Below are positions 1,860-45,150 of a stretch of 64,000 nucleotides of DNA, piece by piece (the stretch's first letter is position 1; the number at the start of each line of letters is the position of its first letter). The translations under genes and the position numbers were made by a program. Below the pieces are notes generated by a model. It was not told the origin of the DNA and ran no database searches. It worked only from the letters and a program-made list of their open reading frames with translations. This stretch comes from Atriophallophorus winterbourni (taxonomy: Eukaryota; Platyhelminthes; Trematoda; Plagiorchiida; Microphallidae): the NCBI GenBank assembly GCA_013407085.1, contig JACCGJ010003001.1, forward strand, positions 1-64,000, in the 5' to 3' direction.

Positions 1860-2398
1860 TTTCGATCGTGCAAGTCGACTTACAGCAAAGTTACCAGTTT
1901 CGACGGAAAATATCAATTTGTTCACACCCACAAAGTTTTTCCAACAAAGAACAATTTCAGCTACAAGTTTCAATACCTTATTTCGTGATTTATCTTCTGT
2001 GGTTCACAAGTTATTGCGGATTAACTGTTCAATGCCGAAATCCCGCCACCGAACACAGTCAAACCACTCAACAAACAAAACCCCCATTATCGATCAGCCA
2101 ACGAGCCCTATACAACCCACAAACATGTGCGAACGTGTTACGAGATCCACTGCCCAGGCCTAGAAAAAAGTCGATCCAACTGTGACCGTGAGAAGTATTC
2201 ATGCGACGGCGACACGGAATGGTCGTGACCTTTGCATCACGTGTTTAGATCCGGTAAGCGTTGATAATGTTCCAGTTAAATGCACATTCTGCGTGTTCCA
2301 CCAACGCGCGTCTTGTGACGAGAATTTAACTGAGAATTGCGTGAGGCTTGTTAACGATGAGAAACACCCATCAATTTTGCAACGGAATTTGAGTGCAA
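1860..2398 (+). pseudogene. CR1-type ORF1 N-terminal fragment with PHD-like zinc finger
   Basis: After a serine/threonine/proline-rich stretch (about 2040-2170) the plus strand encodes a cysteine cluster at about 2230-2345: LCITCLDP, VKCTFC, then FHQRASC. The C-x2-C...C-x2-C-x3-H-x3-C spacing resembles the PHD-like finger at the N terminus of many CR1-clade ORF1 proteins, which are nucleic-acid-binding partners of the retrotransposon RNP. A stop interrupts the frame before the finger, and similarity ends abruptly near 2398 where a different repeat begins. Assignment to CR1 ORF1 rests on the finger and on the abundance of CR1 here; a domesticated or other zinc-finger source cannot be excluded. 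Confidence 0.5.
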
Positions 2399-2414
2399 TC
2401 GGTTAGAGTAGTTT

Positions 2415-2462
2415 TTGGGTAACGTTTCGCTTCTGAACACAGAAGCTTCGTCAGACCAAGGG
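2415..2462 (-). ncRNA. Hammerhead ribozyme-like motif, Penelope-associated type
   Basis: On the minus strand the order is TTGGT, CTGACGA (the CUGANGA core), a 7-bp stem GCTTCTG/CAGAAGC closed by a TGTT loop, GAAAC, then GTT. Bases following the predicted cleavage site (ACC...AA) can pair with TTGGT to form stem I. The ACGT after GAA is self-complementary, as expected for very short stem III hammerheads thought to act as dimers; such minimal ribozymes are known in Penelope-like elements. One extra A lies between the core and stem II, a departure from the strict consensus. It lies just before the Penelope RT fragment but on the opposite strand. Confidence 0.5.
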
Positions 2463-2470
2463 TGTCGGTA

Positions 2471-3386
2471 CGAACAGTGTTCAGGTATAACTGGCATTCT
2501 CACTCAACTCCGATATGAGGCTGGCGGATCGTACCAACTTGAGTGTACAACAAATCATCAGCGGTGTAGCAATTTGTCTAAATATGAACCACTTCTTATT
2601 TAATGGACAGCTATACAAGCAAAACGATGGTTTAGCGATGGGCTCACCGATTTCTCCAGTGCTAGCGAACATGTACATGGAGCACTTTGAAAAGATAACT
2701 TTGAGAAACGAAGCGTTAAAACCAAAGATATGGTGGCGCTATGTCGACGATACATTCGTCATCATAAAGCGAAACAGACTAGAAGCATTTCATAGTTATC
2801 TCAATAGTTTGAATCCAAAAATCCAGGTCACAAAGGAAACCGAGTCTACGGAAGGGACACTTCCGTTCTTGGACTGTCTCGCGCAAAAAGACAACGGCAA
2901 GATAAGAACAACGGTATATCGTGAGCCTCTCGACACGGATGCCATTTTGAGATTCACATCTGCGCACCCTAAAAGGGTATTTTAGTCCATAGCAAAATCG
3001 CTATTCTACAAGGTTGACCGCCTCTGCAGCGATGATGCAGATAAGAGACGAGCTCATGAAGAAGTCAGTCGCCGACTTGCAAATCATGTTTACCCCAAGA
3101 GCTTAATTAAGCGACAGTTAAACCGAGTTAATCATCCGCAACCGAAGACGGCAAAATTTTGGCGAGCTACGGTATCTCTACCGTATGTCAAAACGCCTCT
3201 GAAGAAATAAGTCGAATCTTGAATAGCGCAGGTATTAGAGTAACATATAAGGCAAGTAGAACTCTCCGCCCCGTATTAATGCACCTCAAAGATAAGACTC
3301 CTTTAGGTTGTGCGACGAAATCCATCTACAAAATCAACTGCAAGGGTTGCGAGGGTGTTTACATTGGACAAACGTCTAGAGAACTG
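2471..3386 (+). mobile_element. Penelope-like element: RT palm, linker and start of GIY-YIG endonuclease
   Basis: Penelope-like elements encode a single RT plus GIY-YIG endonuclease. Visible on the plus strand: RTNLSVQQII (2530s), LAMGSPISPVLANMYME (about 2635-2690), the catalytic motif WRYVDDTFVI (about 2735), LPFLDC (about 2865) and VYREPLDTD. After a frameshift near 3150 come LKDKTPLGC and YKINCKGCEGVYIGQTSREL, the cysteine-containing entry to the GIY-YIG domain. The frame stops at 3388, exactly where an LTR begins, so the endonuclease is cut. The N-terminal RT part is missing and the YVDD active site is intact. A dead, 5'-truncated and interrupted copy. Confidence 0.85.
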
Positions 3387-3549
3387 TGATGATTGTTTGA
3401 ATAATAATCAATACTGATCAATAATTCCGTAATTCAAATACTTGTTGTTAAAGCTACATTATTCAATACTCTAATTCGAGTGAGCGTCGTTTTTATCTCA
3501 CTTACATTCTTGGGTTGGTTATTCAATTCAATTCAATTCAATTATCACA
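3385..3549 (+). repeat. Candidate 5' LTR of a Ty3/gypsy element
   Basis: A segment of about 165 bp begins TGTGATGATTG and ends near TCACA, followed two bases later by a TGG-starting primer-binding-like site. It splits the Penelope GIY-YIG frame. Near its 3' end (about 3521-3545) is an ATTCA pentanucleotide array. No second LTR was found because the element is truncated at about 4310, so the boundaries are inferred. Confidence 0.6.
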
Positions 3550-26300: not shown

Positions 26301-29300
26301 AGCTACGTCGAATAGCTCGTGAATTGACCTTCTGCGCTTCAGGCAATTAAGCAAAAACTATCACTAACTAAATCAGCGAAATTGTAACCTTCGATAAACT
26401 GCAATTTCGCCACCACAATTCGTAGAATAAGAGAATAGAATATACTTTGCAACCACTGCGATAGCCTCTGAAGCAAATGAAAAAAGTTTGTATTTTGAAT
26501 CCAATGTTAAATCACGTGAAATCCTTAAATAATCAAAATCGAAGAGAAACTATCCACAACACTGTTGGCGATAATTGGTTAATTGATATACTTTATATTG
26601 ATGTGCATTTTTGTATTTTCTCTACTCGTTATTTGAACATTACTTGCCGGAATGGTGTGTGAATGAGGCATCAAAGGTTGTATTCATGATAATATAATCG
26701 TAATTATAAAGACAATATTTGAAAAACAATCGGTTAGAGCACTTTTCGTGCACCGTTTCACTTGGGGCACGGATGCTTCGTTAGACCAACAGTGGTACTC
26801 TGAACATGAACGTGCTATTTAATAGCGTTATCTCTTCTGACTAATAACTTTGATCTGACGATGTTTCTTATTCATATGTGTAAAACGTCACCAAATCTGC
26901 TCTCTCCGATTGTTTTCAAATTACGCTTTCAGAAAAATAATTACTGAATCGCTCCCAAACACATTTCTACATTTTTCCAGTCAAAATGAAACAGTTGATA
27001 GATGTAGCGAACCTTTCCATTCGAGTTGATTGCCGTGGAAGACGAACTGATTATTGGAATCCCATCTTTGAACCAGTCGATTGTGATTGGATTATTTGCT
27101 TCACTAACTGTGTGATCGCACGAGAGTTGAAGCGTTGTTCCAACCCAAGATGTATCTTGAGGTTTTGTTTGGAATAGAGGTTTACCTTTAATGTACAAAA
27201 TACGCGTTGAATGATTTTGATGATGAGGAAGAAAACTCAGAACACAATTCTCAATTCTCAAAATATGTCATACATCGAGTGTCTGAAACAATTCAATAAT
27301 ATTCATAATATTCATAATTGCTAAGCTTTTAATTTTTTATTTGTAATTCAAACACGTAATCATTGTAAAACTGAAATGTATTTCTCCACGACAAACGACC
27401 AATCTTTAAAATTATAATGTAAATATTAGTTTGGTTTGAAATTAAAATATGTTGTTTTTGGGTGTATGAGTATTTAAAATGCAAACAAGCTAGAATCAAT
27501 ATTGATAACAAAGAAACATTCTAAACAAAGTTTAATAAAAATCGATACATCTACACATCCTCTTATTTGAGCGAGGATGGTAGGAGAAATGCATTGAATT
27601 AGAGCTAAAATTGTGTGGTTTGAACGAAAAATGCATGGGGTTCTATCGAAACATGTTCCCATTTGTTTCAAGTCATCAAATATATACATTGCGATGGTGA
27701 GTCGATATAACGTTTTTGAGATCCAAACACCCTGTTCAAGCATGTGAGAATCATCAGAAAGTTTGAAATGTTTTGCGATCGATCGTATGGAATTGCGCTC
27801 CGGGTTTTTGTCAAACAGGACTGCTGTTTTAACTACGCATGTGGATATTGAATATAAAAACGGAATGTACCATAAAATATTTAAAAGCCGTAAACCACTT
27901 TTCCATGCATCCGTTCATCTCGTGTATTACTCAAACAACGTTGTAAAATGCAAAAACAATATATGAACTACCAGAAAGGACTTAAACCCTGGCGATTGGC
28001 ATTGGATCCGTGATGCCTATTTTCGAAATTCTTAGCAAACACTGAATCTCTCCCCATAATGGACCAGAACGCTTTCCTTTGAGCGTATTTATGTACAAAT
28101 CAGTGGGAGCAGTTTTCAAACCAAATCGTGACCGTCATCACTCAACAGAAGCGTTGAGTTTATGGCAAAAACAACGTGTTTCCGCGAATTTATTTGACAC
28201 AAACATTCACGTTAATTGACAATTTTGTGAAAGCGACAGATTGATCGATTATTACGATGATACACATACGTTGCACTTAATCATTTTCTCACGCTAATCA
28301 GTCATTATTTTCTTTTTTCTTTTTCTCACATGACCGCAGCTGTTGTTCGGTAAACTCAATGATTTCTAGTTTCAAATTTATTTGAATATTCTCCAGGTTG
28401 GGAGTGAAACTTTTTAATAGAAGTCTCGAAATCTGCAATGTCTGTGCTTCCAATAAGAATATACTTTTGTACACGATTTTATTTCGTTGGAATTATATTT
28501 ATGTATATGATGAGAACTCAATAATACATATATCTCTAATGTAATTATATAAGCCAAACACTTAATCAAATTCTTACTTTCAACATTGATCGTGAACTCA
28601 ACGTCACCATTTGGAAAGTTTGGATGTTGGCAGCGATAAAGACCGTCGTGTTGTGTGTTTGCTTTCGAAACAAATAGTTCCCACCCGTTTTGTCGCACAC
28701 TCAATCCTGTGGGTTGAAACTGTAAACCCATACGGTTTAATTGTCGGAAAGTGTGAAAACATTTAGAGCGACAGCATTATATTGTAAACAAACGCCAAGC
28801 TCTTACGTTCAGTGAAACACGAGCTAATCTCTCATCAGTCATGGTTCTCGAAATCTGACATGTTAATTTGTGATCACGTAATATTTTAAGATATTCCTTA
28901 GATCCCCGCTGTTAACGTCAGCCATCGTTTACTTAAGTACTTGAGTACTTGAGACTTGAGGACTATAACTTAAGTCGGAATGCGAGGCAAACATATCGTT
29001 TCATAACGAATGACTATATTAAACAAGAAGCGCTTGTATGCCACTGTTCAATAGGGCTGGTACGACCAACCTGTTAAAAGCATGGATCCAAACACATGTT
29101 TAATGGGTCTAAACACATAACCCTGAACCAAAATATTCATTTGCATGCTTTTCCGTCACAAAACACCCCACGACCAGTTTCGTGCTGTTTGCAATCATCA
29201 GGTAGTGACAGTAAGGTCAGGATCCGCATGCGCTTGAAACAGTGGAGGAATTGTAAACAATGAGCGCTTGTATGTCACTGTTGGATAAGGTTGGTACGAC

Positions 29301-32300
29301 CAACCTTTTCAATTACATGTGTCCAAACACATGTTTAATGGAGTTCAATGTGAACAGGTTGGTCGTACGAGCCTTATTCAACAGTGGCATACAAGCGCTC
29401 CTTGTTTATCATTGCTCCACTGTTTCAAGCGTATGCGGATCCTGATCTTACTGTCCCTACCTGATGAGTGCAAACAGCACGAAAAAGATCTTGGTGTGTT
29501 TTGTGACTGAAAAGCAGGCAAATAAATATTTTGAATCACTATATTGTTTCAATATGGAGCTAATGGCAAGATCCCAGTTCTGGATCGCATGGCCGATCTC
29601 TTAGAATCAGAGTGGAATGATCCCAATTCTCTTTCTTCAAGTTTGGTATAGCCCATCGTTTAGGTGAATTCATCTCACAGCATATATGTGTATGCATGTG
29701 AGTTAATCCTGACATTCCATCCGCTTATAGACAAATTATTTCTCGGATGCATCATCTTTAAATTGCAAATGTGATGCTGAGGATTTTCCTTCTGCTGAAA
29801 ACTAAACAAATACAATATTGTCCGATTTTATTAAGATTACTCGCTTTGTGAATATACAAATCGCTAGCGACAGCTTCATCGCATACACATCATAGTCATT
29901 TGTGGCTTCTTGCAATCACGTAGTGGAGGCAGGAATATTAGATTTATTGAACCTGGAAGTCTTATTTCAGTCAGAATAAACGTTGCAATCGAATACTTAT
30001 CTAACATGGTTTGCCTGTAATTCAAAACTGACAACCAAGGATTAGCTTTTATCCGGCTGATGATGTTAAAAATCTTTTCTTGAAGTCTAATGAAAGCCTA
30101 ATGTATGAAATAGCTAGATCTCAAAAACAGAATAGAATTACCGTAGGTTTGGAAACTTGTTTATATAGTATATTGATGTATATAGATGATATGTCATTCA
30201 ACAACAAAATGGAAAGTTGGTACATCTTTTTATAAATTATACTTAATCGAGAGTAAGATTATGAAGTAAAAACCTGGATTAGAGCTTTGTCAGAAAAAGA
30301 TCGACGTCATCAGACACTTGTATTAATCGTGTGTTGATTGAATGACTTGCAGAAACACTCTCGTGGTTTCCATCACACAGACACGACTTATTTTGTGACA
30401 TAATTTCGAAGCCGTGCACGATATGATTTAGATATTCCCTTGCTGTAAATGGGATGAAGAATCGGTGCAATTTGAGGCAAATTTTAACTTGTATATCCAA
30501 CGCGACATCATTCGTTAGACATACACTTATTATAGTCGTTTTATACAACATTGCCGCATTCTGATGATGTGCAAATGTAAATATTAATATTGTTCGCTTT
30601 TTTACCATGAATACTTGAAACCAACGTTCCAATGTCGATACCTATTTATTCTAATACTGTCTGCGTCATAGTTTCTTATCCAAGAGATACGCGAGTTAGA
30701 CTTTCAACGGTGATTTGGGACTCGCACACAAATTAGTAAAATGGACTTTATCATAGACGAGTGGCTGGCCACTTTTAATTATGGCTTATTATTTTTCACA
30801 AAATGCGTAGCTCAGCAGACTTTGACTGAGTTAATTGCCGATTAACAAGGACTCACGCATCCAGACTACGTTATAACAGAATTCAGACGATAAGCAACAT
30901 TACAAACAATCACTATCGTTCCACAGTTGCTACACCAGATATTTGATGAGCGATCTAGCGTCAACATATGAACTTAATCCTGATTGTCAGTCTGTTAGAA
31001 GTCACACTAGAAGAAACAATTTTGACATCATCCATGACGCATAAGCTGACTTTGGAGATAACGTACAAAATTTTACTACGGACATTGAGTCGATCGAACG
31101 CGTAAAACTTCCCTGAGTGCGCAGAATCACACTCGCTTGATTAAAACCTTAAGATCAGCAGCTAAGCTCATTACCGTTTGAATAGCTAAAACATTATATT
31201 TCAGAGCAAGATTTCAAAAGCCTGGACCCCGGGCAATATCACATATTTAAATGTGCAATATTCGTTCACATCCTGAAAATGATCGTCGTGTCACTTTACC
31301 TCATGTGGTGTTTAGAGATTCGGAACTCATGATGACGAGAAACATTTAAAATCACCTAATATTTCAGATTACCCTAGTAACAGCGTAGCATTCCTTCCGA
31401 AATTCTCAGACATGTTCAAGCTCCATTATATTCTTCTGAAGAATAGCTCCAGATTAAAAAACATCGCATATTGACGAAAAGGGTTTTGCGTGTATTTTTT
31501 GCAAATGAACTCACTTCCCCAAGATTCCACTGCTTCTCACTAGTGGATTCGGTGAAACTCCATGATGGTCGATAATTATATTGATCGATTGCGAAGCAAA
31601 AAATGGAGAATGGTTCGTTTTTCAACACAGTCTGTTTTTTTTCTGAGGGTTCCACAATACGACCCCACAATTCTACTTCTGCAACGTTTGAACTTACCTG
31701 GATTGTGTGTTCATTACCAGCGATTGGTGACCGTAACCCGGGACCGGTGATCTCACATTTATAATTCCTGTTGCCATTCGGTGCAGCGTAATTATTTATC
31801 ACAACCATTTTCCCTTAGAGTAATGCGCAGAAAACTTATCGTCAGTAAAGATGTAGAAATCATTATGAATGTTTCATATACAATCATGAATCTTTGCATT
31901 AAAACGAAGTGAAAATTATCTCTATCAATCTTTATTCCGATATCTTCTATCGATATACATATAGATGAAATCAAACTCTTTCATATATAACCCTTTTATC
32001 TGATAGGTAAGAAAAAGTGTGCAATGCAATGTTTCGCATGCCTAAGTCATAAATGGTCAACCATAAATGGTTGGCGCGAAACTGTACCTATTGAAACTTC
32101 CGATATTAAGTGCTGACAAAAACGTAATGAGTGCCACACTGCATTTTAAAGAATTCTAAATATTACAGAATCGGAAATTGTTCTCGGACCTAGGGTTCAA
32201 GAGTTTCAATCTGAGCGAACAGGTCCTTTTCGCAAAAAATTATTTGTTTGCATAACACTTATACTTATACTTGAACAGACAATTGATATCATAGGGTGAT

Positions 32301-35300
32301 TAATTCAAGTGAAAAAATCCACTATCATTCGACATAGTTACCTATCAAGCGATGTATGTACACTTAATGACATAGCCGTATTCATTGTCATATACATGGG
32401 AGTGCGGATTAAATACTTTATTGATACTGAGGCAGAGAGTGTGAAACATGAAGTATTTTAGAGAAAGGTGATTTGTGCCTTGGTTAAGTTTAAAATTAAG
32501 ATAAGATGAAATAGTATCTTTTCTAATTAATTCATATATGATAAAACGAGAATAATCTCAGTCTAATCTAATGTTTACGTTCAAAATTCGATCCATTTTT
32601 AAAAAATCATTTACCATTTGGTGAAACGGCATAATAATTGTTTCTTGCATCAACTGAGATTATGTTTTCGTCAATCTTCCATTGAATATCCAAGCCTGGG
32701 TTATCACTCTCCATCAAACAGCCGAGTGACTCGTATTCACCAAAACGCAACGTTTTTATGACCCGGGGGGACAGTGCTACAAGGAAGAATACGGTACAGA
32801 TTATAAAGAGCAAGTAGCGTTCTTATAGAATATAAATAAAGCTTTTTACATAATATTATTTTGACAACTATCATGTTTATATCCACTGAATCTCATTATT
32901 CATTTATAAATCTATATATGCTTATATATAAACATTCTAATGCGTTTATTTTACTCTGTGATAAGCTAAGAAACAATACAAATCAACGTAAAAAAGGAAA
33001 CGCTCTTCGACCTACTAATATGCTTCAGGATGGTAGGGTTTGAAACTGCAGTGCCGAAAGGGCCTGAAACCTTGCAGACGTATTCGCCAGCATCAGTTGA
33101 TGAATCAACGGAAATCGAATAGGTGTACCTCGGAGGATTGGTAGACAAATCCCCAGCAGACGGTACGCTGGTAGGGGATTTCGTCCACTGCATGCCGTCT
33201 AGAGTCCACGATACTGAGAGTCCGCTGTAACCAGACAAATAACAACCTGAATAGTAAATCTTGTCTCACGTGTTGGTAACTCTATTAAAGATAACATTAA
33301 AAATATGTCTACCATAATTTTGTTGCATTACTCACTATTTAATGAAGGTAAATAAAGGGATGAATAAAAGCTTTTGAAAGTAACTTTCATGACAGACTCC
33401 TGTTTCGAATCTTTCCGAAATCATTCTTCGCTTCAACAAGTCAAAACAAATTTACCCGGGGGCAATACCATGTTGTCTTGCGTTTCCTGCGAAAACGTCT
33501 CAAACAACTGATTTCAAAATTCGCTGTCCTTGAAGTAGCGAAGCTAAAATGCCATTTGATCGTAAAATAACGATTCATTTGGACCCGAAAGTTAGGGATC
33601 CATTTCACGAGCGCGAACGGTGCTTTGATTAAACAGAGATTGGATAATTTATAGAATTTTACCAACTCATTTCGTGAACGGAGCTGCTTTTACTATCCAC
33701 TTGAAAAATAATCAACCATTCGAGGAGTTTTATTGCTTAGCATCACTACACGTTAAGGTCAAAATTCATGGCTTATACCATTCGCGAGGTGCGTGGAAAA
33801 TATTCTAATACAGATTAATATAGCTTGCGGATTCCGTTTTCTCATTGACTTTCATGAATCAAAAGCTGATATTCACAACAAATGCTCACTCGCCTACATT
33901 TTCTGAACATTGTTGTATCTTCTAATGATTCATCAAACATGTAAGTATTTCTTTTAACGTTTCTATTAAAACAGAGGCTATTTTCTGTTTCAATTGATGT
34001 ACACTTTTCTGTGTTTCCAATTATAGAGATTTTGCTCCGCCAGCCGGAATTATTTCAAATAAACACAGACAGTACTTGATTGGGAGTATCGTGCAAGCAG
34101 AAAGTCCGTTAAATTTCATCTATTTTAGTGTTGCTGTTAAATGAATATTCAATATGCCATAGATTTTATAATAGACTGCCAATGTCAATAGAATTGTATT
34201 ACAATAACTCTTGCTGCATAATCTTTGATATTTTTCTGAAATTCAGTGTTGTTAAATAAATGTCGTTCGCAGGAAATTTTATGGACGAAACACGATGTTA
34301 TGTTATCCTCTGCATATTCATAGTATATGTGAATGTGAGGCCAAGTAGATGCGTCGCAACTCAATATAATAGGACATACATTACGCTCATAAAACTTATG
34401 TTGTGGGATTTTAGAATTTCCCATAGCTATGTCACATTATGTCAGCTTGCTCACAATATCGAACCTCAATTCCGCGATTAGCTAGAAGCGCAGCAATGGC
34501 ACGACCATGTATCAGAGTTAAATCACACAAATGGAACATATTCGATTCGATCAATTGGGGCTTAGTTAAGTCCTTCAGCTACTTATAAGAGTACCGAGTA
34601 GACGAGAACTTCGATTCGAATTGCACCATCCGTCTACACAAATACTAGTTCGAAACGCAAAGAGTCCAGCGGATACGCATAGCTGATGAGAGGCAAAAAC
34701 CTTGAAACCGGTCCTGTGCTTCCGGTAAGATTTTAGCGTTTCGGAATGGTATTCGACTTCGAAATATCCTTGGGTTGTGATAATCCTCGCGGCAATACGG
34801 CGTTCGATCAGTTGGGGCTTAGTTTAGTCCCTTCAGATTCTTATAAAATTACCGAGTAGACGAGAACTTCGATTCGCATTGCACCATCTGTCTACACAAA
34901 TACTAGTTCGAAACGTGAAGAGTCCAGCGGATACGCATAGCTGATGAGAGGCAAAAACCTCGAAACCGGACCTGTGCTTCCGGTGAGATTTCAGCGTTTC
35001 GGAATGGTATTTTACTTCAAACATATTTGCTGTCCGTTTTATAATAGTTCCTAACTTTCGAGTTTGGGTTTGTGCACGGTGATTGCCGGTGCACTAAGAT
35101 TTCAATATATATACGGAGGAAGATGATTATGCGATAACGGAAACCAACTTTCGTGAAGATCAACCATTAGAGGTAACTTGAAGCGCTCGGTCAAGTTATT
35201 AAAAGAGATTTGTGCAAACACAACACGGATAATCAAAACGCCTACCAACCGCCATTTATACTAACAGTCATACAAGCATTTCACGATTTGTTAGTGGACG

Positions 35301-38300
35301 AATCGCTAGCGACTTTCTCTGGACGATTTTGAATCAACCTTCTCCAAACCCAGGTTCAACAAATTTACTCCAAATTTAAATGAATATTTTTTGATAAATA
35401 TTGAAACAGTTTTCCCCTTAAAATTATTATCTTTTTTGCTATTGCTTTCAATGTTATGTATCGTGTTTCCCAACTTCCAGTAGGTCTGTTAAGAAATCCA
35501 TCAGTAATACAAATGTAATATTCACATATATTTGAAATTGCTCTCTCAGTAGCTAATATTTGCGTATAACTCGGGTCTTTTCAATCGACCATACCAAAAG
35601 GTGTATACTTCATGCACTGTTATATTACTCATGCAGCGACGTGTATACTTGTTGCATTATAATGACGGTAATATATAAAAGAATTCGTCCTTACGGAGTA
35701 ATATCTGGAAACTATGTTTAAGCGGTATAAATGCTTTTGTAAATTGTTTCGAGAGCTCGTTTCAATGGTTATGATATTTAGGAAGATTACACCGGTTTAT
35801 AGCGACGCTCTATCTTTAAGAAGCGAACAGCCGTGCGAATCTCATTTTTCGAAAACCAGTGATTTGCTTCAATCATCGGTTTTATCGAACTCTCAGATTG
35901 AAGTGAGGCACGATTTCAATGATTATCCTTTAGAGTTTAACTAAGTTTTGATAGGAATGCATCTGATCATGATAATAAAATCAACTCATCAAAATATTTT
36001 TTACTCTTTTGCAATATCTCCTGTGTACGAAAACTTGCACTCCATTGTTCCAGTAGATTCATACGAATAAACCATTGGTGGATTGTCGAACGTTATTTCA
36101 TAATTTTCTGTGAATTCAATGAAACAAAATATTTACTTATTTATTCAACAAAACCTTTTGATTTTTCGCTATTTGAAAATCTCATCTATTTTATAAAATA
36201 TCGGATCGCATTATATATAGTATGAAATATCATCAGATGTACACACAATATGGACGATATCGATTGGAATAAAATGTTGTAACGAAAAGCTATTTTCGAT
36301 AAAACAATGTAACGATGCAAGTGGGAAAAATTACTCTCGTTATCGACACGTTCTAAAACGAAAGATATGTAATTTTATAAATTCTTAGAAGGAGCTTTAA
36401 TTTCGAGGAGAATTCATACAGCGGATAACACGGATGGTTCAATAATGTATCAATGATTCAATTGGGTGATATACAATGGGTGTATTGAGATAATTTCGGG
36501 CATTTTTTCATAAAACAGAGCTTTCCCTTTAAATTCACATGATGAAGTGGTCAACCAACAATATTTCTCAAAAACGATAAAAGAGAAAAATCGCATCAAG
36601 ATGAATGCCATCACTATAGAGACAAAATTAATAGAAAAACTGCATACAAATTTTAGCATGTGGAAGTCATGAGATGATTCGATCTCGTAAAATCTGTGAC
36701 TCAAGCTAATATAATTAGTGCCTGCTCAGTAGTGTTACATGAAGTTCAACACGCAGTTTAGTAAGCATGAGTTAAACACATTTTTCAGGTTTTATAGACA
36801 TGCATTGCTCATTTGCTTTGCTTGTAATTTCATGTTAATCAGCGACAGCTGATTCCTAAAGTTCTTTCCGGGTTCGTCACACTAAATATCTATTACCTAT
36901 TTGCAAGAGTGTAATGATTATGGTTACAATTTTTCCTTGACTTTCCCGGTTTGCGTTGGAGATCAGAGAACTTATAAGTTTGCAAATTCGTTGCATTTGA
37001 TATATATATATATATATAACTAGAAAAGAATATGAAAGATAATTAAAAATTCAATTTTCATAAGACCGCAGTCATATTTGCTGTGCTTCAGTGTAAGGGA
37101 TTGTCGAGCAGTAAAGACATCAAGTTACGAAATGACCGATCTAGGATCCATGCATGCATTGCACAAACAATACAAACGTGTACTATTTACATTTAGCTGT
37201 CTTGAAATTAACCACGATTACACACTTCATCTGGAACATGCATAGCGTGGGCTAAGTGAAAAATGGGTAACAATATTGACTCAAAAGATAGCTGATAGAA
37301 ATTGACACCATGATAGGGAATATAATCGTGTTACCTAAGAAGCATGAAGCTCTGTACACGTACACCCTGAATCAACCGACATAATGAGGAAAGAAAATGT
37401 TTTTTCAAAATAATACTAATCAGTATTTTATATTCATACAATCAACATATTTAATTGCTTCGCTGATAATTTTCTTATTTGCCGGGCAAAACAATTTACT
37501 TACCATTATTCCCACTAGTTTGACCATAAATGCCGACCTGAAGGATTATTAAAAACCGGATGGCGAAGTCCATGCTGCAAAGTTTCTTCATCTATGTAAC
37601 AGTAGAACGCGTATTAACGTTTATATACGAAACGTTTCACACACACACTGACAAATTTTTCTGATGCAATGGTTGACTTTTTAGAGTGCAACATTCCATA
37701 TTTCTGGCCCCTTCAAACTTACGTGTGGAGGAAATATTGCTGAAAATATTTTTGGTGCTCAGCAAAAAGTGATGGTAACAACCAAATTTGGAATTCCACA
37801 ATAAGCATTCAGTATCAATTGATGACCTTGAAAAAGAAAACAACTCACAATGTGTGAAAAGTTGCGGATTATCAATGGCAATTTTCTTGGAAAGCGGTAT
37901 TGAAATACGCAGCTTAGAAGTTGCACTACCTGAATTTGGAGGAATCTATTGTTGTAGAAGTAGAAATAAATGGTTTATTTAGTAAATTAGATGAGCGGAG
38001 AGAAGACATTTATGCTCTGACTCTTGCGAGAATAACTACCTGTCTAAGTCATACACGAATAATTTCCATAATTTTGTGATCGTCACGTCAAGATCTATCA
38101 GATTATACTATTATTGCTAGACGGAAATATAACACGTTATTGTTTCCTATTCCGGATAAATGTTCTCAATCTCCACGCGAGCAACATTTAACAATGTTTA
38201 ACGCATATAGTTGAATTTACTCACACTCGAACGTGCTGAACATTCTACATCCTTCGAGCTCTCTCTACTTTGTATCTTGACCGTGAAGCTCAGAATCTTG

Positions 38301-39446
38301 TATATCATTTTTGTCTAGCTTAGCGAATACGACCCTAACTTGTCCAATTTAATCTTAGTGAAATATAGCGATCAACATTACGTTGCATGCATGAAACTGT
38401 CTCATCCAGTTAACTTGGAAATACAAACAAATGACCGCACATAAACACGAAACGATGACTCAGAAAACCTTACGGAAAAATTAAAAAAACGTTTTTCGAA
38501 AGGACCTTTCCAAAGACTCATCTTGTGACCTGTCATGTCTGCTAAGGAAAAAATTATGCTCTCAGCGATACGACCTTGACGAATGAAGTGATAAATATAA
38601 TCAAAAACGAATGTTTTGTGGCGCTCATATCCCCACCACTTATTGAAAGACTATTCTATAGTGGGAGTTTGCTACGTGTGCGGACAGATTTCACAATGAC
38701 CCAGCGACCAAGCAAGTGTAGTAGAAATTAATCGGGGACTGAGCTTGGATGTGAAAATTGTCAGTGGTGAATCCTGTTTAAAAATTGAAGTTAACCTCGA
38801 TTAATGTATTGTGAAGAAGAAAAAGAAGAAATTGACTTTATTCGTACACACGAAGTTTAAGCTGTTACAATAATTTCACCATAAATTTAAAAAATGATAA
38901 ACATGTCCCGACATCGAGTTACAATTTGTCGGCTGAACGATTTTTCTTGTCCGTCTTAATTGATTGACATACGATCTAGTTTACCAGCAAAAGTTTTTGG
39001 GTCAAACGTTTCACTGCAAGTCCCGGTATCTCGTACTTCGTTCGAAAGTGCACGTCCAAATTTGACATCAGTTGATCCGAAAATATTTGATGCATTTTAC
39101 CCTTGGGAAATTAGTTGTATGCACGGCCGATTTGAAGGCCCCGCAGAAATCACATCCCCATCACTTACACACAAATACCGGTTTCTGGCCGTTTGTTAGA
39201 CAATGATGGTTGTATATTAGTGATTAACAAAGCTAATACTGATTAAAGGAGAAGATGGAAAATGTGAAAGATAATAACCCACCAAACGCGGGTTCCCGAA
39301 GCTAGCACGTAAACCCGGCACAAACAACGAAACCTTATGAAATCGTGCACTCTAAACAATTACGTTTCCGGTGCTGTCGCTTGAGCATATGCAGCTATCA
39401 GAAAGTACGCAAGTGGAATAAACTTCAAAACCATCGAACAATCCAT
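20097..39446 (-). CDS. Multi-exon Ig-superfamily cell-surface receptor/adhesion protein
   Basis: Model of 12 coding exons (2334 nt, 777 residues) with GT-AG introns; reading phase agrees at every junction. Order: signal peptide (about 1-23), six Ig-like domains each with the Cys...Trp...Y-x-C pattern and mostly split by an intron, one fibronectin type III-like domain (about 619-714), a transmembrane helix (about 723-745) and a 32-residue basic tail. Type I membrane protein, presumably in cell adhesion or signalling, like NCAM/L1-type proteins; no closer family was recognised. The tail shows no kinase or phosphatase domain. Exons 3-12 are well supported, exon 2 is weak, and another first-domain exon may be missing. 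It is the only host gene seen; introns hold retroelement scraps and hammerhead repeats. Confidence 0.72.
20363..23276 (-). other. IgSF introns 11 and 10 (apart from exon 11)
   Basis: AT-rich intron DNA at 20363-21556 and 21773-23276. No element, RNA or extra exon was recognised. Confidence 0.5.
21557..21772 (-). CDS. IgSF gene exon 11: fibronectin III-like domain, first part
   Basis: Encodes EEPIVEFNTSLNRNGQVVV, CLGPENIYELIKAS, CSGLYNVMYYPRGSRE and CNAWCISVDNLKQ. The Y-x-V-x-Y centre and the V-x-N-L pattern before the next exon resemble a fibronectin type III domain, here with extra cysteines. Donor GTGCGT, phase 1. Confidence 0.8.
23277..23416 (-). CDS. IgSF gene exon 10: Ig domain 6, second half
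   Basis: A short exon found from splice signals and phase. It encodes NPPLTVAQEFLAMTFTKVES and KQVEDYECKDND (F-strand Y-x-C), ending QIIKIK with a GTGCGT donor in phase 1. The phase-2 link to exon 9 and the phase-1 link to exon 11 are both satisfied. Confidence 0.75.
23893..23927. repeat. Perfect 14-bp hairpin in intron 9
   Basis: CTACTGGTGGGTTC (23893-23906) is exactly complementary to 23914-23927, with a 7-base loop ACTGGGG. It stands out by GC content from the surrounding intron. Confidence 0.8.
24587..24712 (+). repeat. Diverged copy of the 234-bp hammerhead repeat, intron 9
   Basis: Aligns with 29388-29515: ACATACAAGCGC, TTGTTTAT, CGCTGTTTC, ATCTTACT, TCCCTAC and the region of the ribozyme core. 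The core itself has decayed (ATGAAGAGT where CTGATGAGT stands, then CTGAAAACG), so it should be inactive. Confidence 0.6.
24784..25037 (-). CDS. IgSF gene exon 9: Ig domain 5 end and domain 6 start
   Basis: Acceptor TTATTTTAAATAG. Encodes SLENVYTCLAKNKRES (F-strand Cys), FERKIYFMLAASPGPQVSF, then domain 6 with SPGSYEIHCVKKSG (Cys). The donor is GTAAAA in phase 2. Confidence 0.82.
25140..25330 (+). pseudogene. RTE-A 3'-end fragment in intron 8
   Basis: Encodes CKHQEKQIQHSAAERRSRC and, to 25320, CEFNRKDCHFENGLFSHSEA, the degraded zinc finger at the C-terminus of RTE-A. Antisense to the gene. A typical 5'-truncated insertion. Confidence 0.7.
25653..25916 (-). CDS. IgSF gene exon 8: Ig domain 4 end and domain 5 start
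   Basis: Begins ILELRNILEEKPFMIQCKLS (E-F strands with Cys), continues NRHGWTIHNARIAYG, then domain 5 with VFALEGQRVQLPCGIQGYPK (Cys) and PTFTWQPV (Trp). The donor is GTAAAT in phase 0. This is the most Ig-like exon in the gene. Confidence 0.88.
26731..26810 (-). repeat. Remnant related to the Penelope-boundary hammerhead segment, intron 7
   Basis: Shares with 2399-2475 the start CGGTTAGAG, then CGTTTC, GCTTCGT.AGACCAA and GGT..TAC...GAAC, in the same plus-strand order. The ribozyme core is CTAACGA instead of CTGACGA and stem II no longer pairs, so it is a dead copy. Confidence 0.55.
27013..27185 (-). CDS. IgSF gene exon 7: Ig domain 4, first half
   Basis: Encodes KPLFQTKPQDTSWVGTTLQL, SCDHTVSE (Cys), NPITIDWFKDGIPI (Trp) and AINSNGK, then a GTTCGC donor in phase 0. 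The acceptor (ATTAAAG) has a weak pyrimidine tract, so the exact start is less certain. Confidence 0.8.
27186..28577 (-). other. IgSF intron 6
   Basis: AT-rich intron DNA; nothing recognised. Confidence 0.5.
28578..28719 (-). CDS. IgSF gene exon 6: Ig domain 3, second half
   Basis: The acceptor TTTACAG is followed by FQPTGLSVRQNGWELFVSK and HDGLYRCQHP (D-G-x-Y-x-C), then VEFTINVE and a GTAAGA donor in phase 1. It joins exon 5 without any change of frame. Confidence 0.85.
29158..29224 (-). ncRNA. Hammerhead ribozyme-like motif in the 234-bp repeat, sense to the gene
   Basis: Minus strand: CTGATGA (29195-29201), stem II TGC/GCA with loop AAACA, GAAAC (29177-29181), a two-base stem III loop, then the cleavage triplet GTC (29172-29174). 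CACTAC before the core can pair with GTGGGG after the cleavage site (stem I), and GTCAC/GTGAC extend it. The closing pair of stem II is T-C where the sister copy has G-C. The minimal stem III is typical of Penelope/retrozyme hammerheads. Confidence 0.6.
29445..29512 (+). ncRNA. Hammerhead ribozyme-like motif, inverted sister copy
   Basis: Plus strand: CTGATGA (29461-29467), perfect 4-bp stem II GTGC/GCAC with loop AAACA, then GAAA. The following stem III and cleavage triplet differ from the sister copy (AAGATC instead of CTGGTC), so the core is good but stem III is damaged. Antisense to the IgSF gene. Confidence 0.55.
29519..31514 (-). other. Rest of IgSF intron 5
   Basis: AT-rich intron DNA without recognised elements. 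Confidence 0.45.
31515..31813 (-). CDS. IgSF gene exon 5: Ig domain 2 end and domain 3 start
   Basis: Encodes KMVVINNYAAPNG, RNYKCEITGPG (F-strand Cys), then the next domain with ELWGRIVEP, NEPFSIFCFAID (Cys) and YRPSWSFTES (Trp). The donor is GTGAGT in phase 0. A GTAAGT...GCAG pair at 31679-31697 inside the exon is ignored because reading through keeps the frame and the Ig pattern. Confidence 0.85.
31814..32614 (-). other. IgSF intron 4
   Basis: AT-rich intron DNA; nothing recognised. Confidence 0.5.
32615..32776 (-). CDS. IgSF gene exon 4: Ig domain 2, first half
   Basis: Acceptor TTCTTCCTTGTAG and donor GTAAATG. Encodes LSPRVIKTLRFGEY, ESLGCLMESD (Cys), LDIQWKIDEN (Trp) and NYYAVSPNG. 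The split glycine codon continues into exon 5 as SPNGKMVVI, a typical Ig E strand. Confidence 0.85.
33016..33246 (-). CDS. IgSF gene exon 3: Ig domain 1
   Basis: The acceptor follows TTACTATTCAG. It encodes CYLSGYSGLSVSW (B-strand Cys and core Trp), PPRYTYSISVDSS and DAGEYVCKVSGPFG (F-strand D-x-G-x-Y-x-C), and the donor is GTAGGT. Phase 1 in and out. Confidence 0.8.
34665..34730 (+). ncRNA. Hammerhead ribozyme, unit 1
   Basis: Core CTGATGA (34683-34689), stem II GAGG/CCTT (one G-T pair) with loop CAAAAA, GAAAC, stem III ACC/GGT without a real loop, and cleavage triplet GTC. Stem I is CATAG/CTGTG, then an internal loop, then CGGA/TCCG, the layout of natural type I hammerheads with a stem I internal loop for tertiary contact. 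All core positions match the consensus. ACCGGT is palindromic, so two RNAs could pair to form stem III. Confidence 0.78.
34923..34988 (+). ncRNA. Hammerhead ribozyme, unit 2
   Basis: As unit 1, with core CTGATGA (34941-34947) and perfect stem II GAGG/CCTC, but the cleavage triplet reads GAC rather than GTC, which breaks the conserved A-U pair next to the cleavage site. Probably inactive or weak. Confidence 0.75.
35013..37722 (-). other. Rest of IgSF intron 2
   Basis: AT-rich intron DNA with a (TA)9 microsatellite at 37001-37018. No element recognised. Confidence 0.45.
37723..37826 (-). CDS. IgSF gene exon 2 (tentative)
   Basis: A 104-nt candidate with a good acceptor (pyrimidine tract then TTCAAG) and a strong GTAAGT donor. 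Its phases (2 in, 1 out) exactly join exons 1 and 3. The peptide (SSIDTECLLWNSKFGCYH...) does not look strongly like an Ig A-B strand. An alternative is the 31-nt micro-exon at 33456-33486 with an additional exon not found. Confidence 0.35.
38813..38960 (-). mobile_element. 3' end of a GAA/TTC-tailed non-LTR element, intron 1
   Basis: Plus strand starts GAAGAAGAAAAAGAAGAA then GACTTTATTCG.ACACACGAA, matching 52853-52960 (the same tail and TTTATTCG...ACACGAA). On the minus strand this is an AATAAAG-type 3' end followed by (TTC)n, so it is a strongly 5'-truncated insertion of the family whose RT is at 53000-53680. Confidence 0.65.
39364..39446 (-). CDS. IgSF gene exon 1: signal peptide
   Basis: Starts at the ATG giving MDCSMVLKFIPLAYFLIAAY and ends at a GTAATT donor in phase 2. 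A charged start, a hydrophobic core and AYAQA form a typical secretory signal. The frame is open upstream to 39566, so an earlier Met is possible, but this ATG gives a compact signal peptide. A second in-frame Met lies four codons on. Confidence 0.65.
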
Positions 39447-40310
39447 CAGCCACCGGGTTCTATGACTTAACTGTAATATGTACGCGTATGCCAGAACCAG
39501 GTGCTTCAATATTTGAGGTTCGAAACTGGACGATCTCAAGGTTTGGTTTGACTTGTATGATATCATGCATCATCGTAAGCCAACATCATTGTGTCGGCTT
39601 ACTATAAAACGTGATTCGCCACACCACGCTCAAAATAACCGTAGACTATGAAAGATATCCGAGAGAAATATGGCTTAACTCCTACATGCTACGAAGTAAC
39701 TCAGAAACACCCTGCCGTGTCTACCACGATATTACATGTTGCGAGAGAAGGGGCGACACCGCTGGTCCTGAAATCCATTTCTTCCGAAGTCTTTTCTTAC
39801 TCGATAGTTAAGAAATCATTGTTGATTATTCAACTCACAAACGCGCTAGCTACGACCGTAAGTAATGAATATTCCTGGCAGAAATCATTAAGATTTCGAA
39901 GGATAATGCGAGATAATATATCCATTTTGCACGATCACGCAAGATGATTGAAGTGGGTTTAAATCCACTGAAAGTGATTCTACTGAATAGCGCAACTGCT
40001 GCTCTGAAACATAGGTTCCCAAAATGGATTATTCTATCTGGTTTGAGCCTCAAAGTAATAGAGACAACCGTCGAGTTCTGAGTATAGCGGTTAACCATGA
40101 AAACATTGTGATGCACTTGCAGGCGAAAACGTCCACTGGCACGAATAAATAAATGCCACTCGATCCGAAATCAATCGAGATCCAAACGGAGAACCAGATA
40201 AAATTATGGATTTGGACACTTGAGCTATATCAACACAAACAACTCTACACACCACACAATGGATGTCAGTAATTACTAGAAGTATAACGCACAACGTCAT
40301 GCCAAATTCG
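39447..40310 (-). promoter_or_regulatory. Upstream flank of the IsSF gene start (5' UTR/promoter expected)
   Basis: Lies immediately upstream of the proposed signal-peptide ATG. No TATA box, trans-spliced leader acceptor or CpG-rich stretch was identified with confidence, and no other gene is visible. Confidence 0.3.
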
Positions 40311-40364
40311 AATCCAGATGAGTCGAACTAATAATTTAATTTTACACCCGTCATTATTCACACA

Positions 40365-41330
40365 AAATACGATGAAGTGCATCTATACGAACGCGAAAAT
40401 TTGTATCAATAAATTAATCAAACTGTACGTGATTTGTGATAAAAGGATGCCTGATGTAGTCGCCATAACAGAAACTTGGTTTCATGATTCATTGTCTGAT
40501 GATGAACTCTTCTTGTCTCTATTTCGGAGTGTCCATTTAGATAAAGGTGGAGGAGTAGCACTATAATTCGAGCAGTTTCTTTTCTCAGAGTTATGAACGA
40601 TAAGGCCCTTGATATTGCCGAACGATTTGGCGCTCTCTGACTCTTACTTGAGGAGACGAATCTTTTATAAGGATGATCCATCTTCCCCCAACAGCACAGC
40701 ATCACCAAAACAATAAGCTGATTGATGGTTTGCAACTTGTGACAAATGTGTCCGAGGTTCAGTTATTGATAATGGTGAATTCATCCTCGACAACCTACAG
40801 TCGGGATGATCATTCATCATTCCCACTTGAGTATCAACTTCGAAGCGTCATAGATTAAGCACCCCATTATAACCACGTTCTTCGATTTACTCGTTTTAGG
40901 GGCCAAAAACTTATATCAGATTCTACTGCTTTAAAGAATATTGTCTATAAACGCCAGTCGAACAAAGCGATCATGTTGTCTCATAATTCGAGTGCGTTCG
41001 TAGCGCTAGTCGAAACAGAGTGCGTTCGTAGCGCTAGTCGAAACAGTTTCGGAACATTATACGTCAGAATTGTGAAATCTGTTTGCCGATTTTAAATACA
41101 GCAGTTTTGCAGGATTGGATTGCTCAGATCCGACTAGTCATTGGCTCCTTCTTTTACAGAATCTGAAATGCATACTGAACAAAATTTAATAGTCGTTCTG
41201 AAGGAACCTTCTCAATAAAAGACATTCAGACAGACAGAAAAATTGATGAAAAAATGGCAAGCGCATTCGGTTTCCATCAACCTACAATCACAGCTGTTTC
41301 ATAGGCACAATTTTAACTACTGAGAAACAA
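40365..41330 (+). pseudogene. CR1-like endonuclease fragment
   Basis: Starts KCIYTNAKICINKLIKLYVI and PDVVAITETWFHDSLSDDEL (catalytic E in ITETW intact), then DKGGGVAL with a stop at 40565. Further EN-like reading (YSRDDHSSFPLEYQLRSVID, then YNHVLRFTRFRG) is in other frames. A 28-bp tandem duplication lies at 40991-41046. No RT follows. Confidence 0.7.
40991..41046 (+). repeat. Exact 28-bp tandem duplication
   Basis: Two identical copies of a unit AGTGCGTTCG...GAAACAG at 40991-41018 and 41019-41046. Confidence 0.85.
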
Positions 41331-41435
41331 CGTTTCCGCTAAATTTCAGATGATAAACAACATTTTCGATAGCTTTTGATTTCCTGGCTGCACCACAATC
41401 AGTAGCTTTTAAATACATTCGTAAAGTTTAGAACG

Positions 41436-41472
<37 letters not shown>
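41436..41472. repeat. TA microsatellite
   Basis: About 18 TA repeats between the CR1 fragment and an RTE fragment. Confidence 0.95.
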
Positions 41473-41473
<1 letters not shown>

Positions 41474-41529
41474 CACTACCCTATAAATATATAGCCCTTC
41501 GACTCTCTATACTCTAGAGCAGTACTGTA

Positions 41530-41715
41530 TTGCCGCATGCATTTGGAAATGTCGAGCGCTTGCCGACCATTGAATATCTAGTTACTTCACTACTCTTGAT
41601 GAGCTCAATAGGTCAATCAACAGCTTAGCGAATGGGAAGACCCCCGTGACGACGGAATTCCACCTGAGCTCATCAAATGCCGTAGAGCAGCATTATTACA
41701 ACCTATTCACCATTT
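41530..41715 (+). pseudogene. RTE-A RT N-terminal fragment
   Basis: Nucleotide match to 17900-18070: TGTCGAGCG.TTGCCGAC, TTGAATATCTA, AGCTTAGCGAATGGGAAG, GACGACGGAATTCCAC and GAGCTCATCAAATGC. Joined at 41715 to a reverse CR1 3' end. Confidence 0.8.
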
Positions 41716-42155
41716 ATTTATTCATAGGTTTATTCGTTGACGATACGCAGGTAAAAAACTATGCTTTACAAAACCCACAAAAATGTACGTCGGGTCGGAT
41801 GGTAAAAATCATCAAAATATTGTTTGATTACTGTCAAACATGGAAAACATAGTTTTCGATGTGGATATCTAACGGTTGCTTGAAAACATCAGCGGTTCCA
41901 GATTGTACCACGTGAGTAGGTAAACTGTTCCACAATTGCACATTGCGAACAGAAAATGTAGATTTGAGGCAGTGCAACATGCAACGCTGTTGGTAAAGTT
42001 TTGATTGGTGACCTTGCATATGTATTTTATGGGGAAGATGGAAACGGCTGCAACTTAATTTGTTTGATTAAGCACTGTCAAAATAAATATTAGTGCTCCT
42101 CGGACTCCATTACTTTTGGTATGACTGATAACAACTCTATCACGCGATAGTTTAA
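41716..42155 (-). pseudogene. CR1 family C 3' end plus RT scrap
   Basis: The 41720-42010 segment matches 14465-14755 (SKLYQQRCMLHCLKSTFSVR and VQLWNSLPTHVVQSGT on minus). Near 42100-42155 the minus strand reads NNPLNYRVIELLSVIPKVME, the pre-motif-A RT segment also seen at 46150. Most of the RT between is deleted. Confidence 0.75.
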
Positions 42156-42685
42156 TGGATTATTTCTCTCACCGACGATGTTTCCAAGATAATTTATGTG
42201 AAATGTTTCGGAAAAAAATGAGATAGTGACACAGAGACTGTACTGCGTCCATAGTTTTAAAAGTTGCTGAACATTATCGTTTGATACACTTACTCCGAAT
42301 TTCTTTAGAAATTTTGCACTCGAAACTTTAGGTGCAACAAAAACTGGCATTGAAATCACCCAATAGCACAACATCATTTTTGATTAGCACGTTTTTGATG
42401 ACAGTTGCAAGGAGTTGATAAAATCGTCTTTTTCAGCATGTGTCACAGAGAGCATGGATGCAAAAAAACATTGACCAATGTAATTGTACCATTGTTGCTT
42501 TCGAGATTTAGCGTCCAAATCCGTATTCTGCCGGTGCTGAATTGTTCAGCACTAACCTAGGCACTCGAATCTCAGATCCTCTACACTTCATTGTTTATGA
42601 CATATATTTTTCTTACGTATCTGACGATTCCCACGTTAGACCGAACGTTCCAGTTTAACAGTTTCAGAGCCGATCTATCAGGTTT
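42156..42685 (-). pseudogene. RTE-A endonuclease fragment
   Basis: Minus strand: LKLWNVRSNVGIVR (normally GTWNVRS), VINNEV, GTITLVNVFLHP, VVLLGDFNA near 42370, then VQQLLKLWTQYSLCVTISFF, equivalent to GQRLLELCTQFSLCVSNNFF at 7395. Several frame changes. It sits between CR1 pieces. Confidence 0.7.
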
Positions 42686-42689
42686 TCAT

Positions 42690-44174
42690 ATAATCCATAT
42701 TCAATATATATGTCTAGAAGCCAATGATCTTCATCCGAGATTGGAATAATACAAATTACATTTCCACTTGAGAAACCTGAACTAAGCTTTGGTTATAGTG
42801 ATTTGGTTCACGACAGCTCGATCCGCATAAGACTAGGTTAGATTGGATTTTAACTTTTGTTGGTTGACAGTTGGGAATCAAGCATATCTTCAAGCGCAAA
42901 CATTTGAGGCACAACTTGAGAATAATCAACTCAGAATCATTTGAATATCTCCAAATACTTTCTTAGTGCACGGGTGAAGCTCATTCCTATCATGTCATTC
43001 ATACATTTGCAGTGTCTGTTCTAAAGAAATGCGCATACGGATCTTGATCGGCTAACATATTTGCATTTACCTCAAACTTCTGTTACGCTTGTGAATAACT
43101 CTGCAAATGCAAATCATTTTCCAAGATCAATTTAATTAATCGCGTCCAACCGAGAGAGGCACCCCTTAAATTTGGTTCCAGTCATAGGGAATGCAGTCCT
43201 AATACGATCAGTCGGATATCACATTTCCCACAAAACTTACGTCGGTACTTTTATGCAGTCCGTGTATGCTTATTGTGGAAATGTTTACACCGAGAAATTG
43301 CTATCTAACCGATTGTAATTCTCTTCAAATTAAAGGTTACAATTTTGTATTGAATAATACTTTAAACCCTCATTGTCCGCTATTGCCACAATTTGAATTA
43401 AAAATAATATCCAAACATTCATTTCCGACCTACAATTCTCCTCTCCATTTCAAACTTGGTCTTAGTTTCACTCCTCTTTTAACCTCATTGATGCTTACAC
43501 GTTTAAATTTTAAACGAACATTCTATTGTATTGCGGATCGTTTTGCATTAATCCATCATAAATCTAAAATTTTTATAAATTAATTGATAAAATTGCATCC
43601 ATTCAAAACGCGCATAAACCGTGCGACGTAAATATCCCCTCAGTCATCATACAAGTCCAGCCATCTAGAACAGACGTTGTTGTTCATTACGTAGTTCTCG
43701 GATTAGTTATCAGTTTCTGTGTTCATGCTTAACAAAATTACGTTTATAAAAAGAATTGCGTTATCACCTTCTTGCCAATTTCAGGTGAAACAGCAGCATT
43801 TTTCTAAAAGGTCAAGCAGTATATAGAACGATTATGTAATTTGTTTTTATCCTTTTTGTTTTTCATGAGTTCAGTCACAATGAACCAAAGAATGTCTAAT
43901 CCGATGCCAAAATATGTAATTTTCGTATTTTGATCAAGATGCAAAATTTATGGATGAAAAAGAAATTATCTAAATAATATCACGATGTCAAGTTTTAGGT
44001 ACAATATTATAGACGTGTAAATGATTGGAATAGGTCCTCATGACTCGCTGAATGCACATATATCAATAAATGTGGGTACCGTGTATGAGTCACGATATTT
44101 TAAAAAGACTTGCCACACATGCATCAAACCAAAATAACTGCCTCGGATACATTTGTGTGGGCTATTTCTAAATT
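42690..44174. other. No gene recognised
   Basis: AT-rich. An open frame at 43266-43583 (plus) has no recognisable motif and low complexity, so it is not called. Confidence 0.4.
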
Positions 44175-44179
44175 GCAAC

Positions 44180-45150
44180 GATGACCTCAGATGTTGCTAA
44201 CAGATTAATTTGAAATAAGTTATCCGTTTGGCTGGGAATTAGTTGTACGAACTTTGCATGCAAGCATAAGATCTCCTTGAAAGAATGCCGCCACGATACA
44301 AAAGCAGAAAGCGGTCTGAGCGAGACCAGGGTACGAAGGATTAAATGGTTGGCAACGTCATCCGCAATCGAAGGATATGCTACTTTTAAGTTTGATTTAA
44401 CGCGCCTATTGAAGTAAGGTCTTTCAACGTACCCTTTGATATAAGATTGGTTGACAAATCAGATCGAAATGACAACCGTTGCAGACATATTTCACTTGAA
44501 TATTGTGATCACTAGGTGATTCAACGCTGAGTGATCGCCTGTTTAAATCGATTTGTGTTTCTGATATCAGATCAACCAAACGAAGAAGATATCTCCCCGC
44601 GTGGCAAGCATACACACCGTTTTTTATTGCTTCATCCATGAGTTCATCCTGTCAAGATATAATCGCGTACACCGACAACAAAAAAGAAGCCGAATGTAAA
44701 AACGCGTTGATTAAGCACATGACAAATAACAAAGCAAGCACCCATCTTAAATATGCAAAAGAAACAATCAAAACACTGATCTACAAACCTATCAGAATCG
44801 GACGACATTTCGATTTGATTTGTCAGCCGATTTCGTGCCAACAGGTACACTGTAAGCTTCGCCGCCCATAGCTCATTTAAACGATATTGATGAATTGCAT
44901 ATCTTATGACTACGCAATAATAATTTTTTGGGTAGAGAAATTAGGACTGGATGATTTGAACGGTGATCATTCAATGTAGCGAGACAAATCGTATGTAGAG
45001 AGAGGATGAGGATACGCTGCAGGTTGATAAACAAAATGCCTATATACCGTGACATTCAAATGTCAATAAGCTGGGAGATCGTGACTCTGATTCTGTGATT
45101 ACACTATAACAGGTTTACTTGACTGGTAGAGTTAGCATAGTTCCAAATCC
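44180..45150 (-). repeat. Repeat X, copy 3 (reverse)
   Basis: Read on the minus strand, 45150 to 44870 matches 13870-14000 (GAATCAGAGTCACGATCTCC, then GGTATATAGGCATTTTGTT). A short block at 44880-44900 matches 15735-15760. 44840-44180 matches 17190-17870. The minus strand is open at 44640-44424 (MDEAIKNGVYACHAGRYLLR ... CNGCHFDLICQPILYQRVR) and again at 44400-44180 in another frame (VAYPSIADDVANHLILRTLV). No family recognised. Confidence 0.7.

Follow-up and report, generated by a model that had tools for sequence, protein, structure and literature searches.

The hammerhead-bearing tandem repeat in the 64,000-nt stretch of the Atriophallophorus winterbourni genome that we analysed (contig JACCGJ010003001.1, positions 1 to 64,000; hereafter the window) is probably a degenerate member of a family of non-autonomous non-LTR retrozymes that is cleaved as a dimer and mobilised by the reverse transcriptase of another element. 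The best reading of the family is that it falls within the known animal non-LTR retrozymes as a sequence family, the kind itself being already known. The insertion consists of two tandem units on the forward strand, which are ~92% identical to each other at a spacing of 257-258 bp. Each unit contains a match to the Rfam model Hammerhead_HH9 (Table 1), which bears out a sequence-only reading of this DNA that had described tandem ~257-bp units with hammerheads. In the ORF list of the window, no open reading frame of at least 110 aa overlaps positions 34543-35019. The same insertion is present on contigs C4819, C1945 and C10738, where its neighbourhood recurs at ~91-97% over several kb (matches pooled over contigs), and the number of units is 1.85 or 2.85 among the duplicated copies. 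The insertion therefore preceded the duplication of the locus, and the number of units has changed. Much of the region 28414-45000 has 90-97% similar copies on other contigs, and is either duplicated or represented by separate alleles within the assembly. A perfect 28-bp tandem duplication (GAGTGCGTTCGTAGCGCTAGTCGAAACA) lies at 40990-41046.

Table 1. Hammerhead repeats and related features of the window
Feature	Position	Strand	Evidence or remark
Whole insertion, 1.85 units	34543..35019	+	Bounded by target duplications; unit alignment itself begins at 34546
Unit 1, 257 bp	34546..34802	+	Self-comparison of the window
Unit 2, incomplete	34803..35019 (end approximate)	+	3' end within the class 2 end stretch of the unit
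5' target duplication AACATATT	34535..34542	.	Flank comparison; 11 bp GAACATATTTG in paralogous copies L008, L010, L016
3' target duplication AACATATT	35020..35027	.	Flank comparison
Hammerhead, unit 1	34665..34736	+	Rfam RF02275 (Hammerhead_HH9), 37.7 bits, E 6e-6
Hammerhead, unit 2	34923..34994	+	Rfam RF02275 (Hammerhead_HH9), 35.4 bits, E 3.2e-5
Core, unit 1	34683-34713	+	GUC intact at 34711-34713; predicted cut after 34713
Core, unit 2	34941-34971	+	Cleavage triplet GAC instead of GUC (34969-34971)
Loopless stem III palindrome ACCGGT, unit 1	34707..34712	+	Unit 2: ACCGGA at 34965-34970
Head-to-head pair of family B repeats	29129..29533	.	Self-inverted match 84.9%; cores start at 29201 (minus) and 29461 (plus)
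Penelope-like fragment, candidate helper family	2397..3388	+	RVT_1 at 2491-2985; match to L069
Inverted 5' piece of the Penelope-like fragment with hammerhead relic	2397-2501	minus	Core starts at 2454

CUGAUGA, stem II and GAAA are present in both units and, as had been proposed from the letters, stem I has an internal loop. Stem I is formed by GCAUAG/CUGUGC, followed by the internal loop UAC/U and by an outer stem CGGA/UCCG that continues as a long imperfect helix; stem II of the family is GAGG/CCUC with the loop CAAAAA, followed by GAA and ACCGGU-C. The E values come from an Rfam scan of the whole window, and both scores are below the gathering score of 52, so that a default scan lists no hammerhead; the best score of 47.1 bits belongs to another copy. 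The covariance search suggested by the sequence-only reading thus returns low E values and sub-gathering scores alike. The same reading had called the hammerheads near-perfect; each unit carries a fault. In unit 1 the stem II pair beside the core is G-U instead of the G-C of the family; unit 2 retains G-C and has GAC at the cleavage site, the GTC having been rightly credited to unit 1 only. Because of these faults we regard the window copy as a degenerate member of the family. The faults are complementary: of the two sites only that of unit 1 may remain cleavable, most favourably by the core that unit 2 supplies, and this would be the single cut left to the window copy.

The ACCGGU palindrome has no loop, and therefore cannot form a stem III hairpin inside one unit, while two units can pair with each other in full. 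The stem III proposed earlier for unit 1 is thus a true palindrome, but it is available only between units. Judging from its sequence, the ribozyme should act as a pair, not alone. Our search expression parsed 81 of the 94 hammerheads from loci L001-L030, and CCGGUC (CCGGTC in DNA) stands in 75 of those parsed, so that stem III closes only between two copies, as in dimeric hammerheads. In folding predictions that leave out tertiary contacts, the dimeric hammerhead formed in cis by two consensus units has an energy of -189.3 kcal/mol versus -196.9 for the best fold, that is, 7.6 kcal/mol higher, and the dimer of two short strands reaches -40.7 versus -41.4 kcal/mol. The monomer without stem III has -16.1 versus -19.8 kcal/mol. 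The hammerhead is the lowest fold in none of the energy models used.

The exact, intact 31-nt core of the window's family (family A) occurs in 960 copies in the 537-Mb assembly of 15840 contigs (489 + 471), with no match to a reversed-pattern control, and a search with the unit, in which the best 40 of 436 candidates were scored, gave at least 127 matches. These counts agree with the earlier expectation of further genomic copies. A looser pattern, CTGATGAN{8,20}GAAACCGGTC, which spans several families, recovers 8241 copies (4028 and 4213), again with no match in the control. The hammerhead repeat is therefore present far beyond chance. The consensus of family A, built from 86 units on 23 contigs, has an intact core. 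Cells differing from the consensus make up 18/1118 (1.6%) in the core and 834/16734 (5.0%) in the rest of the unit, or 592/13972 (4.2%) without CpG; the figures for single parts are 12/1032 in stem I, 18/688 in stem II, 8/516 in loop II and 6/344 in the palindrome. The hammerhead thus varies less among the copies than the remaining unit, a comparison that serves as a guide only, the units being related by descent and found by similarity. The copies are too alike for covariation.

Among the matches listed for the looser pattern there are at least three stem II families: A, B (stem II GTGCAAACAGCAC and variants, the commonest among these matches) and C (stem II GCGGCAATAACCGC). The hammerhead is common to families A and C (53-bp match, 87%), which otherwise have no match better than E 0.09. 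At the family C loci L044 (1296-1908) and L063 we observed ~305-bp tandem units with an A-rich end, in which the hammerhead module of family A sits in an otherwise different unit. Both families remain below the Rfam gathering scores, family C matching HH9 (45.2 bits) and family B Hammerhead_1 (25.0-32.9 bits, gathering 34). Copies of family B aligned from 25 loci end ~72 nt past the core start and have varied 5' cut-off points. In the head-to-head pair of family B repeats in the window, both cores are altered near the cleavage site; a sub-gathering match to MIR1919 at 29273-29389 was discarded, as it lies inside this inverted pair, which explains it. Another hammerhead-like relic, CTGATGA...GAAACCGGATG, which is similar to family B and has no standard cleavage triplet, is found at 20453-20486 (+). 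Each of two viral-contig scans for the core gave 0 stretches.

We aligned 38 array loci to the repeated consensus, leaving out six overlapping loci of L001-L030. Six of these loci, judging by their flanks, repeat insertions already counted (L008, L010 and L016 of L001; L028 of L012; L029 of L017; L084 of L030), and eight reach the end of the fetched DNA or of the contig (L024, L073, L075, L076, L077, L078, L082 and L083). The remaining 24 insertions have their 3' ends at unit positions 65-80 (13 insertions, class 1), at 214-222 (10 insertions, class 2) or elsewhere (L015); the two stretches cover 25 of the 257 positions and were defined after inspection of the data. The unit consensus has two exact copies of the motif ACTTCGA, one per stretch, but as a shared 3' motif this is weak: 30% of the compared unit windows align equally well with the class 2 end. 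The predicted ribozyme cut, at position 168, is outside both, which argues that a 3' end made by the ribozyme is not the usual start of reverse transcription. The 22 readable 5' ends, at positions 1, 4, 32, 60, 78, 118, 139, 141, 151, 172, 175, 177, 189, 191, 200, 227, 231, 238, 243, 245, 247 and 247, are spread but uneven: nine lie between 227 and 4, and three just past the cut site. Directly upstream of seven of the 22 (L005, L011, L012, L015, L022, L024 and L074), an inverted piece of the unit was read by eye. The arrays hold from ~1.5 to 11 units.

Target duplications of 8-11 bp accompany five insertions: that of the window (8 bp, extending to 11 bp in the three paralogous copies), L002 (9 bp), L017 (8 bp) and, by eye, L080 (10 bp) and L072 (9/10). 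In a flank test, at least 8 nt were shared in three of seven independent insertions versus four of 42 mismatched flank pairs (8 or 9 nt); no target duplication was found in the other four of the seven (L009, L018, L019 and L030). Taken together, the preferred 3' ends, the spread 5' ends, the inversions and the target duplications point to retrotransposition in which the reverse transcriptase starts at sites within the unit. The repeat combines a type I hammerhead (HH9, below gathering) with 257-bp tandem units, inside the ~150-450-bp range of non-LTR retrozymes, arranged as dimers to multimers; it is non-coding, dispersed and without LTRs, and its target duplications, when present, exceed 4 bp, as in non-LTR retrozymes. 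The earlier suggestion of a non-autonomous hammerhead element of retrozyme-like form is well matched by this multi-copy tandem repeat with target-site duplications and 5'-truncated insertions.

Satellite DNA, whose arrays would multiply and disperse through unequal crossing over and segmental duplication with the hammerhead as a passenger, is an unlikely explanation. Arrays of up to ~11 units (L024) would suit it, as would the duplication of the window insertion together with its surroundings and with a changed number of units. It does not account for two 3'-end stretches common to 23 of 24 insertions whose 5' ends differ, for the inverted pieces and target duplications, or for a hammerhead less changed than the rest of the unit. 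Units differ by 6.2% within arrays versus 6.7% between arrays (3 of 500 shuffles were as low), a slight difference, and for 24 of 83 units the closest relative lies within their own array. Some short arrays are much closer internally (2.3% vs 5.4% on C15233, 1.6% vs 5.8% on C11582), and the two units of the window are not closer to each other (9.9% vs 9.3%). This closeness is what copying from one circle and later decay would give, but local duplication would give it as well. That the repeat is a domesticated intronic hammerhead, processing a host transcript as in amniote genes, is barely conceivable. HH9 is its closest Rfam model, as such a role might suggest, but there are hundreds of dispersed copies and both window units are faulty; moreover, the possible host exons at 28414-28776 and 31416-31814, both on the minus strand, have no Pfam match, and a protein search with the 31416-31814 ORF found no homologue at E 0.001. 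The intron placement given in the sequence-only reading gained no support from these ORFs.

Which element supplies the reverse transcriptase is a separate matter. The genome is rich in Penelope-like elements with a loopless hammerhead of their own: of 6700 reverse transcriptase candidates the best 150 were scored, and all 150 matched. Open frames at their loci reach 878 aa, tandem copies are spaced at 2753 and 2796 bp, and one named match to the fragment in the window is from Spirometra. Their hammerhead, UUGGU-CUGACGA-stem II-GAAACGUU-ACCAA with the loopless palindrome ACGU, sits inside the start of the long open frame. In seven of eight fetched places the copies end 33-126 nt past the hammerhead core start, the eighth (L090) having no match, and the layout is similar to that of the class 2 retrozyme ends, 76-84 nt past the core start, and of the family B ends. 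A single fixed Penelope-like end 57 nt past the core start was considered and dropped, as the letters showed divergence and not an end. At L092 (C10444:70200-70550) the Penelope-like 3' end lies exactly at the predicted hammerhead cut. This shared layout argues against a LINE as the mover of the retrozyme, an alternative that we nevertheless consider quite possible, if somewhat less probable than not. Reverse transcriptase ORFs of LINEs are frequent in the window (for one of these LINEs the named flatworm matches come from Paragonimus westermani, with 68% over 50% and 73% over 30% of the query). The likeness between the Penelope-like tail and the class 2 end is weak, as 2.9% of Penelope-like windows score equally well, and the class 1 end has no likeness to the Penelope-like 3' end. 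It is very improbable that the repeat is instead a fragment, such as a terminal repeat, of a Penelope-like element. Penelope-like elements do bear loopless hammerheads in tandem (as the accessible part of PMC7761336 also describes), but at E 0.01 BLAST finds no similarity between the family A unit and the Penelope-like loci L069 and L070, which stand for two subfamilies, and the hammerheads differ in their stems and cleavage triplet.

For the retrozyme reading that we prefer, we propose that multimeric transcripts are cut by hammerheads that would pair up to fold, as two units share the loopless stem III palindrome. A host ligase would circularise the 257-nt monomers, by analogy with published retrozymes. 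With a circular or multimeric RNA as template, the reverse transcriptase of the other element would then start in one of the two preferred internal stretches and copy more than one unit into the new site; here the end pattern is what we observe, and the template form and the helper are what we propose to explain it. According to the text available to us, reverse transcription by an Anolis Penelope-like enzyme begins at an internal position of its RNA, and mutants of the hammerhead remain able to insert in vitro (PMC11167929); Penelope-like elements are held to be a strong candidate for the mobilisation of animal retrozymes (PMC7229834, in part). With the two preferred 3' ends lying away from the ribozyme cut, the idea of a Penelope-like helper becomes testable. 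The loopless hammerhead also offers a simple possible reason why single-unit circles stay closed, a point left open in the accessible part of PMC7229834. More tentatively, all hammerhead repeats of this genome may share one life cycle, in which loopless hammerheads would need multimers to act, leaving a finished single-unit circle unable to reopen; the Penelope-like enzyme would start reverse transcription shortly after the hammerhead, turning circles into multimeric insertions, and the two retrozyme start stretches would imitate the start signal of the helper. We regard this joint reading as doubtful.

For animal retrozymes, type I hammerheads have been described together with small circles and, in amphibians, dimeric ribozymes (PMC7229834, in the sections available). 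Family A resembles these non-LTR retrozymes in its tandem units of a few hundred bp, type I hammerhead, many dispersed copies, lack of any need for coding capacity, coexisting Penelope-like elements and G+C below 50%. Invertebrate hammerheads, as far as the same excerpts go, mostly have a helix III and are cut as monomers, whereas family A has a loopless palindrome. Relative to the retrozymes treated there, the two internal 3'-end stretches are an addition. Among the titles listed in a literature search, outside subscription papers and repeat libraries, none dealt with retrozymes whose 3' ends are internal and fixed. The HH9 model (RF02275) matches family A best and has the same stem I internal loop and loop II, but it includes a stem III loop that family A lacks. 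The Penelope-like elements of this genome have 3' ends soon past the hammerhead, as the retrozyme does, and unlike them the family A unit has no reverse transcriptase. Lunse et al. 2017 reportedly deals with the hammerheads of Penelope-like elements. Such hammerheads also have no usable helix III in one copy and act as dimers; in the portions of PMC6155905, PMC7761336 and PMC11167929 that we could consult they are called minimal, without contacts between stems I and II, whereas family A keeps the UAC internal loop and the CAAAAA loop II of HH9. The schistosome Sm-alpha and W-element repeats, likened here by description, are likewise flatworm repeats with type I hammerheads, and those of the W-element have an extremely short stem III and in some cases cut in vitro (PMC8490949, partial text). 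The hammerhead repeats of newt and axolotl (PMC7229834 and PMC6155905, each in part) are alike in their very weak palindromic helix III and expected dimeric cleavage, and differ in their 330-350-bp units, vertebrate host and sequence.
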